A DNA stretch of 64,000 bases from contig NZ_AP021889.1 of assembly GCF_011398355.1 (NCBI RefSeq), forward strand, positions 930,001 to 994,000, written 5' to 3'. The notes beneath the pieces are model-generated. The model was not told the DNA's origin. It worked only from the letters and a program-made list of their open reading frames with translations, and did no database searches. The stretch comes from Thiosulfatimonas sediminis (GTDB lineage: Bacteria; Pseudomonadota; Gammaproteobacteria; Thiomicrospirales; Thiomicrospiraceae). Of the stretch, positions 4,522 to 60,669 are shown piece by piece (within the stretch, counting starts at the first letter, position 1; every line of letters starts with the position of its first letter). Position numbers and translations under genes: made by a program.

Positions 4522-5370
4522 ATGCAAGTCATTGAAACGATTAGTAAATTGCGTTTAGTGGTGCAAGGTTGGAAGCGCCAAGGGTTAACGGTGGCATTTG
4601 TGCCTACGATGGGGAACTTACATCAAGGGCACCTAAGTTTGGTGGATGTTGCCAAGCAAAAAGCCGATAAGGTTGTCTGCAGTGTGTTTGTTAATCCACT
4701 GCAGTTTGGTCCTGATGAAGATTTTGACCGCTATCCACGAACCTTTGAAGCGGATAAAAAGTTGCTCAGTGAGCAGGGGGCGGATTTGCTGTTTTTCCCG
4801 AGTGTACAGGAAGTTTATCCGCATGGTACGGCACAACAGACCTTAGTTAAAGTGTTGGCCAGTTTAACTGAAAACCTAGAAGGTGCTGTCCGTCCAGGGC
4901 ATTTTGACGGTGTCAGTACGGTGGTGCTGAAGTTGTTTAATATGGTACAACCAGATTGTGCTGTTTTTGGGCAGAAAGATTATCAGCAATTGCGCGTGAT
5001 AAAGATGATGGTCGAGGATTTATCTTTGCCGATCAAAATCATTGCAGCGCCGATTGCTCGTGATAAAAATGGTTTGGCACTGAGTTCGCGTAACCAGTAT
5101 TTGAGCGCTGAACAGCGTCAGATTGCGCCTAAATTACAGGTCGTTTTACAAGACATTGCCGCCGCTTTGCAGTCGGGTAATCGCGATTTTTTCGCTCTCT
5201 GTGAAGTTGCTCAGCAGCGTTTGTTAAGGGAAGGTTTTGATCAGGTTGACTATATCGAGATTTGTCAGCCAAAAACCTTACAAAAATCGACTGATTTCGA
5301 TCAAGAGTTTGTCATTTTAGGCGTTGCCCGGCTTGGAACAACCCGCTTGCTGGATAATATTCTGATATAA
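4522..5370 (+). CDS. panC: Pantothenate synthetase (pantoate-beta-alanine ligase)
   Basis: Joins pantoate and beta-alanine with ATP. The Rossmann-like HIGH motif is QGHLSLV after VAFVPTMGNLH, and the KMSKS-equivalent region is ALSSRNQYLS. A GTG at 4513 would add three residues; I prefer the ATG at 4522 because family members begin MQxIxTIxxLR (282 residues here). No strong Shine-Dalgarno sequence is visible for either. Probably cotranscribed with panB. Confidence 0.95.
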   Translation: MQVIETISKLRLVVQGWKRQGLTVAFVPTMGNLHQGHLSLVDVAKQKADKVVCSVFVNPLQFGPDEDFDRYPRTFEADKKLLSEQGADLLFFPSVQEVYPHGTAQQTLVKVLASLTENLEGAVRPGHFDGVSTVVLKLFNMVQPDCAVFGQKDYQQLRVIKMMVEDLSLPIKIIAAPIARDKNGLALSSRNQYLSAEQRQIAPKLQVVLQDIAAALQSGNRDFFALCEVAQQRLLREGFDQVDYIEICQPKTLQKSTDFDQEFVILGVARLGTTRLLDNILI

Positions 5371-21294: not shown

Positions 21295-22494
21295 TTAAGC
21301 GAGATAGATGTCGCCCTGTTCGTCAGTCCGAATCGCAATTGGCGTTAAGTGTTCGCCCCAGCAAGGGCCATCAATACATTCGCCGTCAGCAATATTGAAA
21401 AATGCATCATGCACCGAGCACTTTAGGGTGTTTTCAAATGGATTGACGTCAATTTTATAGGCTTCGTTTAATGGCACATTTTGATGTGGGCAGTTGTTTT
21501 CATAAGCGCGTACGGTATTTTCGTGCAGGATTAAAATGATGCTGCCAGTACTGCCAACGTCAATAACCGTGGCTTTTGCTTTACTGAGTTTTTTAATGTT
21601 AGCGATGGCACGGTTTTCTGCTTTAACGTTTAAGATGTCATCCAAGCCGCGTTTTTGAATTTTTTGTGCTGCCAATTGATTAGCAAATTTACACGCTTCA
21701 CTTAATGAATTGCCGTTAAGCAATTGATGGATTAGGCCGGCATTAAAAGTATCGCCAGCCCCTAAAGTGTCAATAACCGGATTTACCGGAATGGCAGGAA
21801 TATGCTCTATGGAATTGTTAATCGCTTTAAGCCATACGCCTTTTGCGCCCCAAGTGCAGACAAGGTTGCTATTCGGCGCTAACTGGCTCATCGCTTCTAA
21901 AAGTTGTACCGCATCGGTAAATTGCTTCGCTATCGCGTAGTGGTGTGAAAAAATCACTAGATTTGCGAGCGGTAGCAAAGCTTCAATGTTTTCTCGCGGT
22001 TTCTCAACTTCCAGTGAAATCGGTTGCTTGTCTAAAAACGTCTTACTGATATTTAACATGCCTTGAAGGTTTTCAATATTTCTACCTTCAAAATGGAGCC
22101 AATCGAAATTTTCAATTTCAATTTTGGCAAAGAACTCAAAACTTACCTCTGGTAAATCGCGATAGTGCACAATCGTACGGCTGCCGTTATGCGCATTTAA
22201 GGTAACGATGGAGTTGGGTGTGCTGCCTTGAATGAATTTTTGAATGTGAGTGCAGTCAATTCCATGATCTTGCATGCCGCTGATAAGTTGTTTTGACTCA
22301 CTATCGGTTGCTGCGGTGGTGCAAATTGAAGTAGCGTGACCAAGTTGATTTAGTACATATAACGTGTTGTTTACATTGCCCCCAATTTGATGTGTTTTAG
22401 ACAGTGCACGCATTTCTTGATCTTCTTTAGGGTGCTGTTCAACACTAAAAATGGTATCCAGCACAGCATTACCTATGGCAAGAATTTTGGCCAT
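21295..22494 (-). CDS. PfkB-family sugar kinase fused to a C-terminal Rieske [2Fe-2S] domain
   Basis: 399 residues. Residues 1 to about 300 are a PfkB (ribokinase/ketohexokinase-type) kinase: GNAVLDTIF at the start, the substrate-side motif IGGNVNNTLYVL (37-48) and the catalytic DTLGAGDTFNAG (242-253, base D248). Residues 305-399 are a Rieske fold: cluster ligands CPH at 335-337 and CSVH at 359-362, followed by FNIADGECIDGP as in NirD/ferredoxin-type Rieske domains. I see one uninterrupted frame, so the fusion looks real. Substrate and electron partner are unknown. It diverges from the FNR-type gene across 544 bases. Confidence 0.85.
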   Translation of the reverse strand: MAKILAIGNAVLDTIFSVEQHPKEDQEMRALSKTHQIGGNVNNTLYVLNQLGHATSICTTAATDSESKQLISGMQDHGIDCTHIQKFIQGSTPNSIVTLNAHNGSRTIVHYRDLPEVSFEFFAKIEIENFDWLHFEGRNIENLQGMLNISKTFLDKQPISLEVEKPRENIEALLPLANLVIFSHHYAIAKQFTDAVQLLEAMSQLAPNSNLVCTWGAKGVWLKAINNSIEHIPAIPVNPVIDTLGAGDTFNAGLIHQLLNGNSLSEACKFANQLAAQKIQKRGLDDILNVKAENRAIANIKKLSKAKATVIDVGSTGSIILILHENTVRAYENNCPHQNVPLNEAYKIDVNPFENTLKCSVHDAFFNIADGECIDGPCWGEHLTPIAIRTDEQGDIYLA

Positions 22495-23038
22495 TATGAG
22501 ATTCCTTTATTAAATTTTTCTATCAGTGGCGGATATTTTATGGAATTTTAGCATAACTGTTGTTCGGAAAAGTTTTCCATAAAAAGACCGAAAATAATGC
22601 TAACAAGTCTTGACAATTTAAAAAGTGAATAAAGTTGGTTTTCATAGCTTGACAAGTCGTTAATTATTTTAGTGAGTGCTAATGTTTTTAGCTTGTTAGC
22701 ATTGATAACTTTATGATTTATAAAGAAAAAAATGTTGCAATACTGTGTTTCCTAAAATAGGCGTTGGGAGGAGTTTTTCCACAGAATCTGTGGATAACTT
22801 TGTGAGTAAGTATCAGATAAGTCGGCAAACTCTTGATGGTTCATGGGGCTTTCGAGGACTGATTAAAATTTAGTCAAATAGTTTTTTTTGAGTTAAAATA
22901 ACTATTTGGGTGGAAATTTTTCTAGTACAATAAGTATTTATGTGTACATAAGATAATAGAATGTCTTTAGTACTGTTTCGTATTCCCAAAAGAGATACAA
23001 TCAAAACTTGATTAGGGACAATTAAGTAGACGGTTCAT
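22495..23038. promoter_or_regulatory. 544-base divergent control region between kinase-Rieske gene and fnr
   Basis: No gene seen. AATGCTAACAAG (22597-22608) is matched by its exact reverse complement at 22692-22703, with a related TGCTAATG at 22677-22684. Two TTGACA hexamers occur near 22611 and 22649. The arms CAAATAGTT (22875-22883) and AACTATTTG (22900-22908) form a further inverted repeat. TTATGTGTACATAA (22938-22951) is a near palindrome, and AATCAA-aac-TTGATT (22999-23013) carries FNR-like half sites 25 bases before the fnr start. Very AT-rich. Confidence 0.5.
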
Positions 23039-23788
23039 ATGAGTGAAGTAAAGTCAGCATTTAACGTTAGTTGCAAAAACTGTGGTTTGCAAAAAATTTG
23101 TTTTCCAACCGGTTTGCAAAAAGACGAGATAGATCGCCTTGATAGTTTTGTAGAGCGCCGTGCCCCTCTTAAAAAAGGGCAGCATCTATTTGAGGCACAC
23201 GATAAATTTAATGCGTTATACGCAATTAGAGCGGGCGTTGTAAAGCTCTATTCGTTTACCGACACGGGTGAGGAGATTGTGCATGGCTTCTATCTACCCG
23301 GAGATGTTTTAGGTATCGATGCGTTGGGTTCTCGAATGCATCAGTACAACGCAATTGCGTTGGATACAACCAGTGTGTGTAGTTTGCCATTTGATAAGTT
23401 TTCGCAAATGACTGAAGAAGTGCCGCAGCTGAATAAGCAGATGATGAATGTAATCAGTAAAGAAGTTCTGGATGGTCGAATGCATTCTGAATTGTTGGTG
23501 AGACGTAACGCTGACCAACGTGTTGCACAGTTTATTTGGAATATGTCAGAGCGTTATCGAAGCCGCGGTTATGCAAGTTCAGAATTTAGACTCAGTATTT
23601 TACATCGTGATGTGGCTGTGTATCTAGGATTAACGCCCGAAACGGTTTCGCGTATTTTAGCCAAATTCAATTCTGAAGGGATTGCTACTTGGAAAAAGAA
23701 AGAAGTAGTAATTCATAACATGGATAGATTGTTATATACCGCAGGGGTTCAAACGGCTTGCGATAGTTGCAATAAAGCATCAGCTTAA
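23039..23788 (+). CDS. fnr: FNR/Anr-type oxygen-sensing transcription regulator
   Basis: CRP-FNR family regulator whose [4Fe-4S] cluster senses oxygen. 249 residues. Cluster cysteines C12, C15 and C21 (CKNCGLQKIC) plus C114 in TTSVCSLPF match E. coli Fnr. Cyclic-nucleotide-like beta barrel, dimer helix, and C-terminal helix-turn-helix HRDVAVYLGLTPETVSRIL with DNA-contact residues E201, S204, R205, which predict binding to TTGAT-N4-ATCAA. Such a site lies 37 bases after its stop. ATG start at 23039. Confidence 0.94.
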   Translation: MSEVKSAFNVSCKNCGLQKICFPTGLQKDEIDRLDSFVERRAPLKKGQHLFEAHDKFNALYAIRAGVVKLYSFTDTGEEIVHGFYLPGDVLGIDALGSRMHQYNAIALDTTSVCSLPFDKFSQMTEEVPQLNKQMMNVISKEVLDGRMHSELLVRRNADQRVAQFIWNMSERYRSRGYASSEFRLSILHRDVAVYLGLTPETVSRILAKFNSEGIATWKKKEVVIHNMDRLLYTAGVQTACDSCNKASA

Positions 23789-23824
23789 CTTCGTAACAAA
23801 AAAAATTACAGATTTTTGCTGAGA

Positions 23825-23838
23825 CTGATTTAAATCAA
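23825..23838 (+). promoter_or_regulatory. FNR box
   Basis: CTGATTTAAATCAA matches TTGAT-N4-ATCAA at nine of ten fixed positions. If it acts at -41.5, transcription would start near 23873. It lies just downstream of fnr itself. Confidence 0.7.
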
Positions 23839-23872
23839 TATTTATATATTGTATTTATGTTTCAATAGTGTT

Positions 23873-23960
23873 TGTGAAGACGTTGAGTCTTTGAAAGGTT
23901 TTCTCAACGGTTTTCATAATGTAGCCCGCTTGCCCGGCAGTCAAATGCCGGGATTTTTTT
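23873..23960 (+). ncRNA. Candidate FNR-controlled small RNA
   Basis: About 88 bases from the start predicted by the FNR box to a strong terminator. Architecture: 5' hairpin CGTTGAG/CTCAACG (23881-23887 with 23903-23909), an unpaired stretch (about 23910-23932, ggttttcataatgtagcccg), then a GC-rich terminator hairpin with seven T. There is no open frame of note. This is the layout of Hfq-type regulatory RNAs, and FNR-activated sRNAs (FnrS, AniS) are known in other proteobacteria. No sequence similarity to FnrS is evident; the start site is inferred. Confidence 0.5.
23933..23960 (+). terminator. Intrinsic terminator of the candidate sRNA or of fnr
   Basis: Stem cccggca/tgccggg (23933-23939, 23946-23952), six-base loop, then A and seven T. 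Confidence 0.88.
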
Positions 23961-24243
23961 ATAGCAACTATTTTTATTCTTAAATATATGTGTGCTATAT
24001 AAAAACTGAGATTATATTAACAAAGTTTTAATAAAAAATTTACTGGCATAAGTACGTATTTTGTTGTTTTTTATTAAAATTTTTCAGTATTTATCCTGTT
24101 TCTTGGTCTTTAAGGCTCTTTTGAGTCGTTTCAATATAATCTTTTTCTTATCACCCTTTGCTCGATACTTTTTTTTTATACTGAATCCGGTATAGTTGTA
24201 TGCATTGTTTAGTCTTAAATATTTAAAAGAAAAGGTGGCATAA
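23961..24243 (+). other. AT-rich region upstream of pal
   Basis: No gene seen. TATAGT at 24191-24196 is a possible -10 for pal, overlapping an imperfect palindrome ATAC-N8-GTAT (near 24178-24193). AAAAGGTGG just before 24244 is the pal ribosome site. Confidence 0.35.
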
Positions 24244-24801
24244 ATGGTTCAAAATTTAGTTAAGTATTTTGCTGTTGCAGCTATAGGTTCGGCGTTGATT
24301 GGTTGTAGCGCCACGCCAGAAATTGAAGATGGTTATAAATACGAAGAGCAAAAGCAGGCGGTTGGTGATGTCTCTCCAGCAGTTGCAAAGGTTTCGATGA
24401 ATGACGGTGCTGCTGATTTGAATGGCGCCAATAAAAATTCAGACGGCTTGAGTAATGAACAATTAAAAGCGATGTTGAGCGGTAAAGTGGTCTATTTTGA
24501 TTATGACCGTTCTGATGTACGTGCTGAGTTTTATGAAGTGATAAAGCTTAATGCGCAATACTTGAACAAAAATCCAAGTATGAATGTAACCGTTGCGGGT
24601 CACTGTGATGAACGCGGTTCTCGAGAATACAACTTGGCGTTAGGTGAACGTCGTGCGATCTCCGTAAAAAATGCTTTGGTTTTTGAAGGTGTTAGTGCCA
24701 GTCGAATCAATGTAGTGAGTTTTGGTGAAGATATGCCAGCGATTGAAGGGCATACGGATTCAGCATGGGCGAAAAACCGTCGAGCAGAATTTAATTACTA
24801 A
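24244..24801 (+). CDS. pal: Peptidoglycan-associated OmpA-family lipoprotein (Pal-like)
   Basis: Outer-membrane lipoprotein that binds peptidoglycan. 185 residues. Lipobox ALIGC with the lipidated C21; C-terminal OmpA domain VVYFDYDRSDV, VAGHCDERGSREYNLALGERRA, VSFGEDMPA, AKNRRAEF. GHCDERGS and NLALGERRA are typical of Pal. No tolB or tolQRA is adjacent, so the assignment to the Tol-Pal complex is by sequence only. It has its own promoter region and terminator. Confidence 0.88.
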   Translation: MVQNLVKYFAVAAIGSALIGCSATPEIEDGYKYEEQKQAVGDVSPAVAKVSMNDGAADLNGANKNSDGLSNEQLKAMLSGKVVYFDYDRSDVRAEFYEVIKLNAQYLNKNPSMNVTVAGHCDERGSREYNLALGERRAISVKNALVFEGVSASRINVVSFGEDMPAIEGHTDSAWAKNRRAEFNY

Positions 24802-58203: not shown

Positions 58204-60669
58204 ATGATTGAATTAAACACCCCGCAACAAAACCGTTTTGGTGATTCGTATTTTCCGGAAATTAACCAACAACTGTTTGCCAAAGAGTCGGCAGAATCGG
58301 TTTTCAAACGTAATTTCCCCCATTTGTTTGAACCGAGCGAAATGCTATATATCGTGGTTGGAACCGATAGTGGCCTGTTTTATGAATTTGTGCAGCGTCA
58401 AACGCTTCCAAAACATATGCAGTTTGTGTTTATTGAATACGATCAGCTCGCTGAGCAAATGCCGACACCTTTTAGCGAACTCAATGATTTAGATCCTCAA
58501 GTTGCGATGGTTGCGCAAAATTTTAGGCTCGAGAAGTTATTAGCGAAATTTAACACCTACTTTATTCGCCGCAGAGTACAGCTGATTAAATCTATGGCGG
58601 TCACCGATAGTCCGAAAAACGGGCTTTATGAACTCTTGTGGAAACAGATTAAACCGGCGTTTGATACCTTGGGGTCAAACGTTTTACAAGCGCAGAATGC
58701 CTATCAGTTTGAAAATGCACGGTTGCTTAATGCGGCAGATAATTTGATTCCCATCAAACAATTGAATCGTCCTTTAGAAGGGCTTTGTGCGGTGTTGATT
58801 GGCGGCGGGCCAACCTTGGATGATTCGCTTGCGTGGATTCGTGACAATCAGCATAAATTGGTGATTTTCTCGGTAGCGCGAGTTGCTGCACGATTGTTAC
58901 AAGAGTCGATTGTGCCGGACTTTTTTGTCTCGGTGGATCCGCACGATGTCAGTTTTGACAACTCTAAAGGTATTTTTGAGTTTGCCGACCGTTCGATTTT
59001 GCTAAACAGTTATCACATCAATCCGAAAATTTTAGGGCAGTGGCCTGGGTTGAAAGCTTATGGTGGGGCGAAATACGGCTGGAAAGATGTAGACGTGCCG
59101 AGTAATGTCGGCAGTCCTGGGCCAACGGTGGTTAACTCAGCGTTTCATTACGCTACTGAGATGGGCTGTAAAAAACTGTTTTTGAGTGGTGTGGATTTCT
59201 GTTTTGCCAAAGGCCAAACCCACGAAAGCTCGAGTAATGAAGCTAAGTTATCGGCACAACTGCAGTTTAAAAATTTGTTGCGTGTTGAAACCAACCGAGG
59301 CGCCATGGCTGAGACAAAGCTGACACTCTTCAATACGCAACAAGCATTTCAGCAACAGGTGTATTTTCAGTTGTCACGCAACGCCGCTTTAGAGGTGTTT
59401 TCGCTTGGGGCCGATTCCGCCAAAATGGATAAAGTGGCTTTTGCCAGTGCACCTGATGCAACTACGTTTACGGATAAAGTGCACTCTATCGCCAACTTAA
59501 AACAGCAGTTACAGCTAAGTCCAGCGGCGCAGTTAATGGCCAGTCAAACGGTGACTCAGGAATTAGCGAAAGAGTTGAAACGGTTTAAATCTGTGCAACG
59601 ATTTGCGCAAGATGCTTTGGCGGCCCTGCCAAAATTGTTGGATAAGCAGACGCAGCAGCCTAAACAGAAAGTTAAAAATAAAATCGAGCGTTTGAGAAAG
59701 AAAATCAATAACACCTTGGCGGATGACGCTGATTTGTTGATGAATTATAACTTCATGCATTTTTCAGAAAACTTTAACCCTGAGCAGGTTTTGGATGAAA
59801 CGCAAGGCGCGCTCACACAATTGACAGTCTTTTTTACTTCCGTCGATGCGGCTTTAACCCAGTATTTACAATTGCTCGCCTTGGCAGAAGAACGCGCCCA
59901 ATTGAGGGTTAAAGAGTTGCGCGGAGTTACGCCACTGGAGATTGCCCCTTATTGGGATAAGTATCAAGAGCCGGGACGCGCGTTTTTATGGACTAATTTG
60001 CATGCCGCATCGACCGAGCAAGAGAATCAGTTGTTGGACGATTTTTACGCCAAATTTGCGGCGGAGTTGTCCTTAGCCAATACCAAACTTTACGCTACAT
60101 TAAAGCAGAAGACGCAATCACTTAGTGTGCTTGCGGATAAGGCCAAAGAGGCTTTGTTAAATCGAAATTCGGGCGCGATTGCCCAACTAAAAGGCGTTGC
60201 TGAACAGTTGGAAATAGCCGTTGAGCGTGATGCATTATTGCAATTATTGGTCGCGATGGAGGCTGATTTAGCCGAGCAAACTGAGCAGGCTTTGCAAGGT
60301 TATTTAGCGATTAATGAACCGGTAGTTCGGCATGTTGCTTTACAACAAGCGGCGAATTTAGCGTTTAGGTTAGAGCGATATCAGGATGCCTTGATGATTT
60401 TGGAAGCGCTTTGTCGTTTTTCACTGGATTACATGCTGCCGTATGCCGAAGTCTTTGATATTTTGGGGAATACGGAAATGGCCGTGCAAGTTGTCGAATT
60501 GTATTTGCAGCAAAAACCACAAGCGTATTTGGCAAATCTAAAACTTGCCGAGATGTATCAGAAGTTAGGGGACAGTGCGGCTGCCAAGCAAGTTTTGGAG
60601 CGGGTGTTATTGGTTGATCCTGATAATAGTACCGCAAAATTTTTGCTCGCTATCGAAAACGCGCAATAA
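58204..60669 (+). CDS. maf: Maf-type flagellin glycosyltransferase (motility accessory factor)
   Basis: 821 residues. Central DUF115/MAF_flag10 region: GLCAVLIGGGPTLDDSLAWI, IVPDFFVSVDPHD, NVGSPGPTVVNSAFHYATEMGCKKLFLSGVDFCFAKGQTHESSS. C-terminal part (about 640-821) is helical and ends in TPR-like repeats (AVQVVELYLQQKPQAYLANLKLAEMYQKLGDSAAAKQVLE). Maf proteins transfer nonulosonates to Ser/Thr of flagellin before export. Follows legF by three bases; flagellin genes come next. Confidence 0.9.
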   Translation: MIELNTPQQNRFGDSYFPEINQQLFAKESAESVFKRNFPHLFEPSEMLYIVVGTDSGLFYEFVQRQTLPKHMQFVFIEYDQLAEQMPTPFSELNDLDPQVAMVAQNFRLEKLLAKFNTYFIRRRVQLIKSMAVTDSPKNGLYELLWKQIKPAFDTLGSNVLQAQNAYQFENARLLNAADNLIPIKQLNRPLEGLCAVLIGGGPTLDDSLAWIRDNQHKLVIFSVARVAARLLQESIVPDFFVSVDPHDVSFDNSKGIFEFADRSILLNSYHINPKILGQWPGLKAYGGAKYGWKDVDVPSNVGSPGPTVVNSAFHYATEMGCKKLFLSGVDFCFAKGQTHESSSNEAKLSAQLQFKNLLRVETNRGAMAETKLTLFNTQQAFQQQVYFQLSRNAALEVFSLGADSAKMDKVAFASAPDATTFTDKVHSIANLKQQLQLSPAAQLMASQTVTQELAKELKRFKSVQRFAQDALAALPKLLDKQTQQPKQKVKNKIERLRKKINNTLADDADLLMNYNFMHFSENFNPEQVLDETQGALTQLTVFFTSVDAALTQYLQLLALAEERAQLRVKELRGVTPLEIAPYWDKYQEPGRAFLWTNLHAASTEQENQLLDDFYAKFAAELSLANTKLYATLKQKTQSLSVLADKAKEALLNRNSGAIAQLKGVAEQLEIAVERDALLQLLVAMEADLAEQTEQALQGYLAINEPVVRHVALQQAANLAFRLERYQDALMILEALCRFSLDYMLPYAEVFDILGNTEMAVQVVELYLQQKPQAYLANLKLAEMYQKLGDSAAAKQVLERVLLVDPDNSTAKFLLAIENAQ

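Follow-up and report, generated by a model that had tools for sequence, protein, structure and literature searches.

A predicted FNR-activated small RNA gene behind fnr in Thiosulfatimonas sediminis and related genera

Immediately behind the fnr gene of Thiosulfatimonas sediminis, a putative binding site for the oxygen sensor FNR precedes a short non-coding stretch with a strong terminator, which raises the question of whether this stretch is merely the 3' end of the fnr messenger or a gene of its own for a small RNA (sRNA) under the control of FNR. The window analyzed herein is a 64,000-nucleotide stretch of a 2.72 Mb chromosome, and a preliminary description had proposed from its letters that an FNR box drives an sRNA beside fnr. 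In the present study, we conclude with considerable confidence, on the strength of sequence comparison, that the locus is an independent FNR-activated gene for a trans-acting, probably Hfq-binding sRNA lying beside the gene of its activator. The features of the locus are as follows.

22996-23001: apparent -10 element of fnr, TACAAT, assigned by eye
23008-23021, plus strand: FNR-like box TTGATtaggGACAA, 8 of 10 fixed positions, just past the apparent fnr -10
23039-23788, plus strand: fnr, encoding a 249-aa oxygen-sensing FNR (NCBIfam NF008365, 237 bits against a cut-off of 228) with the Pfam domains HTH_Crp_2 and cNMP_binding
23825-23838, plus strand: FNR box CTGATttaaATCAA, 9 of 10 fixed positions, centred at -41.5 from the inferred start
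23858-23866, plus strand: extended -10 element, TG-n-TTCAAT
23873-23960, plus strand: inferred sRNA of 88 nt, covered by covariance models R1-R3
23873-23918, plus strand: 5' hairpin of 15 pairs, its pairing kept while the sequence varies between genera
23918-23931, plus strand: core AATGTAGCCCGCTT, mostly unpaired and conserved, the probable seed
23933-23960, plus strand: intrinsic terminator, stem 23933-23952 followed by a T run
24244-24801, plus strand: pal, the usual downstream neighbour, outside the sRNA unit

The box was found at the place and with the nine matching positions first described. Its distance from the end of the fnr stop codon at 23788 is 36 bases rather than the 37 originally given, the other details having been right within 1-2 bases, and the 88-base stretch, said to begin about 35 bases past the box, begins 34 bases past it at 23873, a start that was placed 7 nt past the -10 hexamer, and ends with the T run at 23960. 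The upstream gene is of the FNR type, as had been supposed, and its product has the arrangement C-x2-C-x5-C readable in its N-terminus. Further upstream, a single 399-aa frame on the minus strand (21295-22494) joins a PfkB-type sugar kinase to a C-terminal Rieske [2Fe-2S] domain. Matches to this frame lie upstream of fnr in 28 of the 30 loci of one set and in 14/14 of another, mostly to the kinase part since the loci end there.

The promoter layout is shared by every locus in which the RNA was recognized. For each RNA, the best box was sought in the 120 bases preceding the core, and the -10 element was the best one in a 12-base range past the box. An FNR box with 9-10 of the ten fixed positions was present in 30/30 loci and perfect in 17, and TG precedes the -10 element (extended -10) in 29/30. 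Counted from inferred starts, 7 nt past the -10 hexamer, the box is centred at -41.5 in 27 loci and at -40.5 in three, so that all 30 have an FNR box at one of these two positions of a sigma-70 type promoter. In shuffled 120-mers, a box with nine of ten positions occurred anywhere in the scanned part in only 46 of 6000. Over the whole genome, the pattern YTGATNNNNATCAA gives 28 strand-hits and its reversed control gives 2; in the window the pattern occurs at three places, the other two (5291-5304 and 58744-58757) being inside coding frames. Since box, -10 element, core and terminator are conserved in 30 genomes, the locus is not due to chance, and the joint conservation of box, -41.5 spacing, extended -10, core and terminator across five genera supports the proposal of an FNR-box-driven sRNA beside fnr.

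Of 56 fnr loci, 30 have the order fnr, box, RNA, terminator, and these belong to five genera of a single family (Thiomicrorhabdus and related genera); the 56 comprise the sets of 30, 12 and 14 loci examined downstream, a 57th (G024) at a contig end being left out. The DNA of 23790-23975 matches 16 of the 32 genomes of the genus, and 15 of these matches sit between fnr and pal; locus L016 was dropped, the common part being only the box-to-minus-10 stretch. A covariance search of relatives, suggested at the outset as a check, gave matches in 27 of 62 genomes of the order, namely 15 of the genus and 12 in three other genera, the latter each directly behind an fnr homolog with 42-57% identity. The weak hits L038 and L039, with no FNR gene by tblastn, no box and no intact core, were dropped. 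Three further RNAs (L103, L104 and L115) were found by inspecting fnr loci lacking a model match, and all 30 RNA genes adjoin fnr. With filters off, each of the 30 loci, 15 of which had served to build model R2, has a single R2 hit at E<=0.05, and no hit of model R3 in the 26 fnr loci lacking the RNA is better than E 1.4. In two of these RNA-less loci (L049 and L061, of G001 and G016), the gap from fnr to pal contains a MITE-like insert that is about 150 bases long and has inverted ends matching each other.

Outside the family, no convincing member was found in an even sample of 369 genomes of the class searched with stricter filters, in which three family members matched strongly and a fourth, G053, which is without fnr, did not match. 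Two weak matches outside the family (L222 and L223) were dropped, since both fnr (by tblastn) and the box are lacking and the core is either absent or broken. A scan of 84,980 species for the 20-nt pattern TTTCATAATGTAGCCCGYTT, which does not fit the variants of other genera and may omit near relatives of the window, returned six records only: four from Thiomicrorhabdus and two MAGs classified under Thiomicrospira and Hydrogenovibrio. Named relatives with the core in their records are T. heinhorstiae, T. marina and Thiomicrorhabdus sp. Milos-T2. Moreover, the RNA is absent too from five family genomes in which no fnr reached the threshold applied (G015, G045, G052, G053 and G060; no positive control was included), and this joint absence could be one deletion of two neighbours. 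On the FNR tree, which has some long branches of weak placement, the distribution of the RNA requires 5 changes, compared with 18.9 for shuffled labels; the simplest account is an RNA that arose early in the family, was passed on by descent and disappeared on several occasions. Its lack in 26 of 56 fnr loci indicates that it is dispensable.

The shape first described, a 5' hairpin, an open segment and a strong terminator, was recovered in the fold of the 88-mer and in the terminator scan. The fold reaches -30.1 kcal/mol, compared with -19.6 +/- 3.2 for shuffles (z -3.26), and the terminator stem has 7 pairs, 6 of them G-C. Across the 30 RNAs, which are 65-95 nt long, the 5' hairpin differs widely between genera and still pairs, with a mean z against dinucleotide shuffles of -2.06 and 28 values below -1. 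When the RNAs are aligned by fitting to the model, pairing occupies 92.4% of cells, against 33-55% when partners are slid by 1-3 columns; on that same fitted alignment rest the counts of double changes, in 14/18 pairs over both helices and in 9/11 of the 5' helix. When the 15 genus members are aligned with MAFFT, the 5' helix (drawn by hand) is paired in 87.7% of cells and shows no double changes, those present sitting in the terminator. The core AUGUAGCCCGCUU is nearly invariant over the 30 RNAs, the exceptions being an extra U in L104 and an altered CUU in L015 and L115, and it stays so in loci where FNR identity is down to 42%. It is mostly unpaired in the predicted folds and largely paired in L009, L014 and L115. 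The seed-like segment had been placed at 23910-23932; the conserved part is narrower, 23918-23931 within that span, and the TTTTCAT immediately 5' of it may extend the probable seed. The frame of the core relative to the first start codon is mixed (13/12/5 over the 30 RNAs). The locus thus has the features of a non-coding structured RNA with an intrinsic terminator, and the near-invariant core, the kept helices and the mixed frame fit a base-pairing sRNA. The RNA also has a T-run tail, and hfq was found in 59 of the 62 genomes. Comparison between genomes establishes the promoter layout, the RNA shape, the core and the linkage to fnr at the level of sequence.

Herein, we propose a mechanism in which expression, FNR dependence, use of Hfq and repression are what we infer. 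Without oxygen, FNR with its 4Fe-4S cluster would bind the box at -41.5 and activate the class II promoter with its extended -10. The RNA would end at the terminator, which the fnr mRNA probably reaches as well, and the 5' hairpin would protect the RNA end. The open core would base-pair with ribosome-binding sites, lowering translation, and in part of the family fnr itself would probably be one target, in negative feedback.

Which messengers the RNA acts on may be read in several ways. First, at somewhat below an even chance, its main role may be feedback: FNR would drive synthesis of the RNA, which in turn would block translation of fnr at the start region. Several relatives have GGGCUAC-U-AUGAA or a similar sequence in the fnr start region, to which UUCAUA-AUGUAGCCC in the RNA is complementary. 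GGGCUA or GGCUAC lies just 5' of the fnr start codon in L046, L047, L050, L051, L067 and L073, the fnr leader of some relatives contains GGGCUACUAUG, and other complementary sites occur in L071, L076 and L078/79. The site lies before the AUG in L046 and L071 and after it in L076 and L078, differing positions that may reflect repeated evolution. Tested with shuffled cores, the pairing of core and fnr start reached p<=0.05 in 15/30 loci with the RNA and in 4/26 without it; among control starts, omitting loci that do not reach these genes, pal and pepN gave 3/25 and 1/23 with the RNA and 0/23 and 1/24 without it. Ranked against 2343 own-genome starts, the pairing reached p<=0.05 in 15/30 and 6/26, and the ranks differ (Mann-Whitney p 0.003), although the genomes are related and not independent. 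Against this reading, four to six RNA-less genomes pair too; five of the six fall in two small groups, which may descend from RNA-bearing ancestors. Windows in the coding part of fnr (mean -12.1) also pair as strongly as the start window (-11.0), and the pairing is not significant in the other 15 of the 30 RNA-bearing genomes, including G000, G009, G022, G031 and G007. In the window's own clade, the core-fnr pairing is absent (rank p 0.29-0.38), and the longer RNA tested against fnr in this clade and G007 was not significant (p 0.12-0.32). Taken over many relatives, the pairing suggests negative feedback on fnr, and we advance only tentatively the view that some members of the family, though not the window's clade, have such feedback.

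The window's clade, without this pairing, has the 8/10 box past the fnr -10, and FNR may therefore act on its own promoter instead; transcriptional autorepression of fnr through the box at 23008-23021 is possible. Perfect FNR boxes lie near the fnr start in L045, L055, L080, L082 and L110. A box of at least 8/10 within 65 bases of the fnr start was counted, by eye and with a cut-off set afterwards, in 2/15 paired and 7/15 unpaired RNA-bearing genomes, which is too weak to claim exclusive use of either RNA pairing or an FNR box at fnr.

Second, the RNA may be a broad repressor resembling FnrS, one that shuts off mRNAs of aerobic functions and not fnr, a reading that we entertain with reserve. 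The promoter geometry is the same as that given for FnrS (class II, -41.5) in an excerpt of PMC3032703, and a 13-nt core that is nearly invariant across five genera implies that several targets are under constraint. However, a conserved target was not found. Target prediction, another check suggested at the outset, yielded sites in the own genome, but those checked are not conserved in relatives. The scan took in 2343 starts predicted by greedy ORF calls rather than a trained gene finder, which represent about 90% of the genome, and two sites stood out, at -23.2 and -20.9. The best hits of 30 shuffled cores averaged -16.7 (sd 1.7, extreme -22.6); none was as strong as -23.2, and one beats -20.9. 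The -23.2 site spans both the start codon and the ribosome-binding site of a gene that lies upstream of acnB (a neighbour recognized by eye) and encodes a 191-aa lipoprotein without a Pfam match. The lipoprotein has homologs in four other genomes of the 62, and the site is kept in none of them, including G009. The -20.9 site starts at an uncertain codon, and ccmF, ranked third, was found in 10 of the 30 genomes asked, with a good site in G000 only. Since the lipoprotein and ccmF sites are not kept in relatives, no target is supported in the window's clade. Moreover, when the 30 genomes were searched for complements of the core, allowing one mismatch, 7 were found away from the RNA loci, compared with 15 for the reversed control; all 7 were inspected and none lies at a start codon. 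Among the top 120 sites of the own-genome scan are eleven near-identical 116-aa frames with identical start regions, by eye an IS transposase helper (e.g. 15606, 75639, 344660, 554682 and 1117477).

Third, a joint, two-layer loop appears rather unlikely when taken as a whole. In such a loop, FNR would switch on the RNA behind its own gene and the seed would pair with the fnr start; the fnr mRNA, which would carry the seed in its own 3' UTR because it probably runs to the same terminator, could be silenced in cis; and some lineages that lack the pairing would have come to use an FNR box in the fnr promoter in its place.

It is very improbable that the stretch is only the 3' UTR and terminator of the fnr mRNA, with the box incidental. 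The site at 23933-23960 is the first terminator-like site listed 3' of fnr, and with none listed between the fnr stop and 23933, the fnr mRNA probably ends there too. However, box, -10 element and core are as conserved as the terminator, and in RNA-less relatives fnr persists while the unit is missing. Conservation of the terminator alone, which the preliminary description had set against its own proposal, was not what we observed, the core being better conserved than the terminator stem. Hardly credible, finally, is a leaderless short peptide starting near +1: an ATG, GTG or TTG lies within the first six bases in 30/30 RNAs and some frames encode 11-13 aa ending in IM, but the lengths range over 3-24 aa, the helices covary, and the mixed frame of the core makes a conserved peptide unlikely.

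The independent, FNR-activated sRNA gene that we favour can be placed beside known systems. Rfam gave no match in the whole window at gathering score, and a permissive search of 23789-24240 (E<=10) gave 6 matches, the highest being RprA with 23.4 bits against a cut-off of 70; FnrS was not among them, in keeping with the dissimilarity to FnrS noted earlier. Among the papers listed for topic terms in an open-access library, none deals with this RNA. To our knowledge, FnrS is not linked to fnr. OxyS with oxyR and SgrS with sgrR are sRNA genes beside their activator genes, and both are divergent pairs that respond to other signals; the sRNA here, in contrast, lies downstream of fnr on the same strand. 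An FNR-dependent sRNA of Neisseria is known both as fnrS and as AniS. FnrS itself, of Escherichia coli and other Enterobacteriaceae, is FNR-activated through a class II site at -41.5 according to an excerpt of PMC3032703, the layout predicted here as well, and the present RNA differs from it in having no Rfam match and in adjoining fnr in all 30 loci. The same excerpt gives the Neisseria RNA as 108 nt, anaerobic, with a perfect FNR box at -41.5 and a terminator; box position and terminator are alike here, and the sequences were compared only through Rfam. OmrA and OmrB repress the mRNA of their own activator OmpR (ompR), as stated in part of PMC12692685, an activator-feedback loop like that predicted here for part of the family; they are controlled by OmpR and not FNR, and feedback is absent here in the window's clade.

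By comparison of sequences, the RNA thus represents a new family within a known kind of sRNA, and its position behind fnr, the gene of its proposed activator, is fixed. This kind of sRNA is already known in enterobacteria and Neisseria, and here it comes with a different seed and the fixed linkage to fnr. If the proposal is true, the sulfur-oxidising Thiomicrorhabdus group would have an FNR-controlled sRNA with a seed of its own and an unusual, fixed linkage to fnr, and the relatives with, without and with altered pairing would form a natural set for testing whether RNA feedback tunes the levels of the oxygen sensor.
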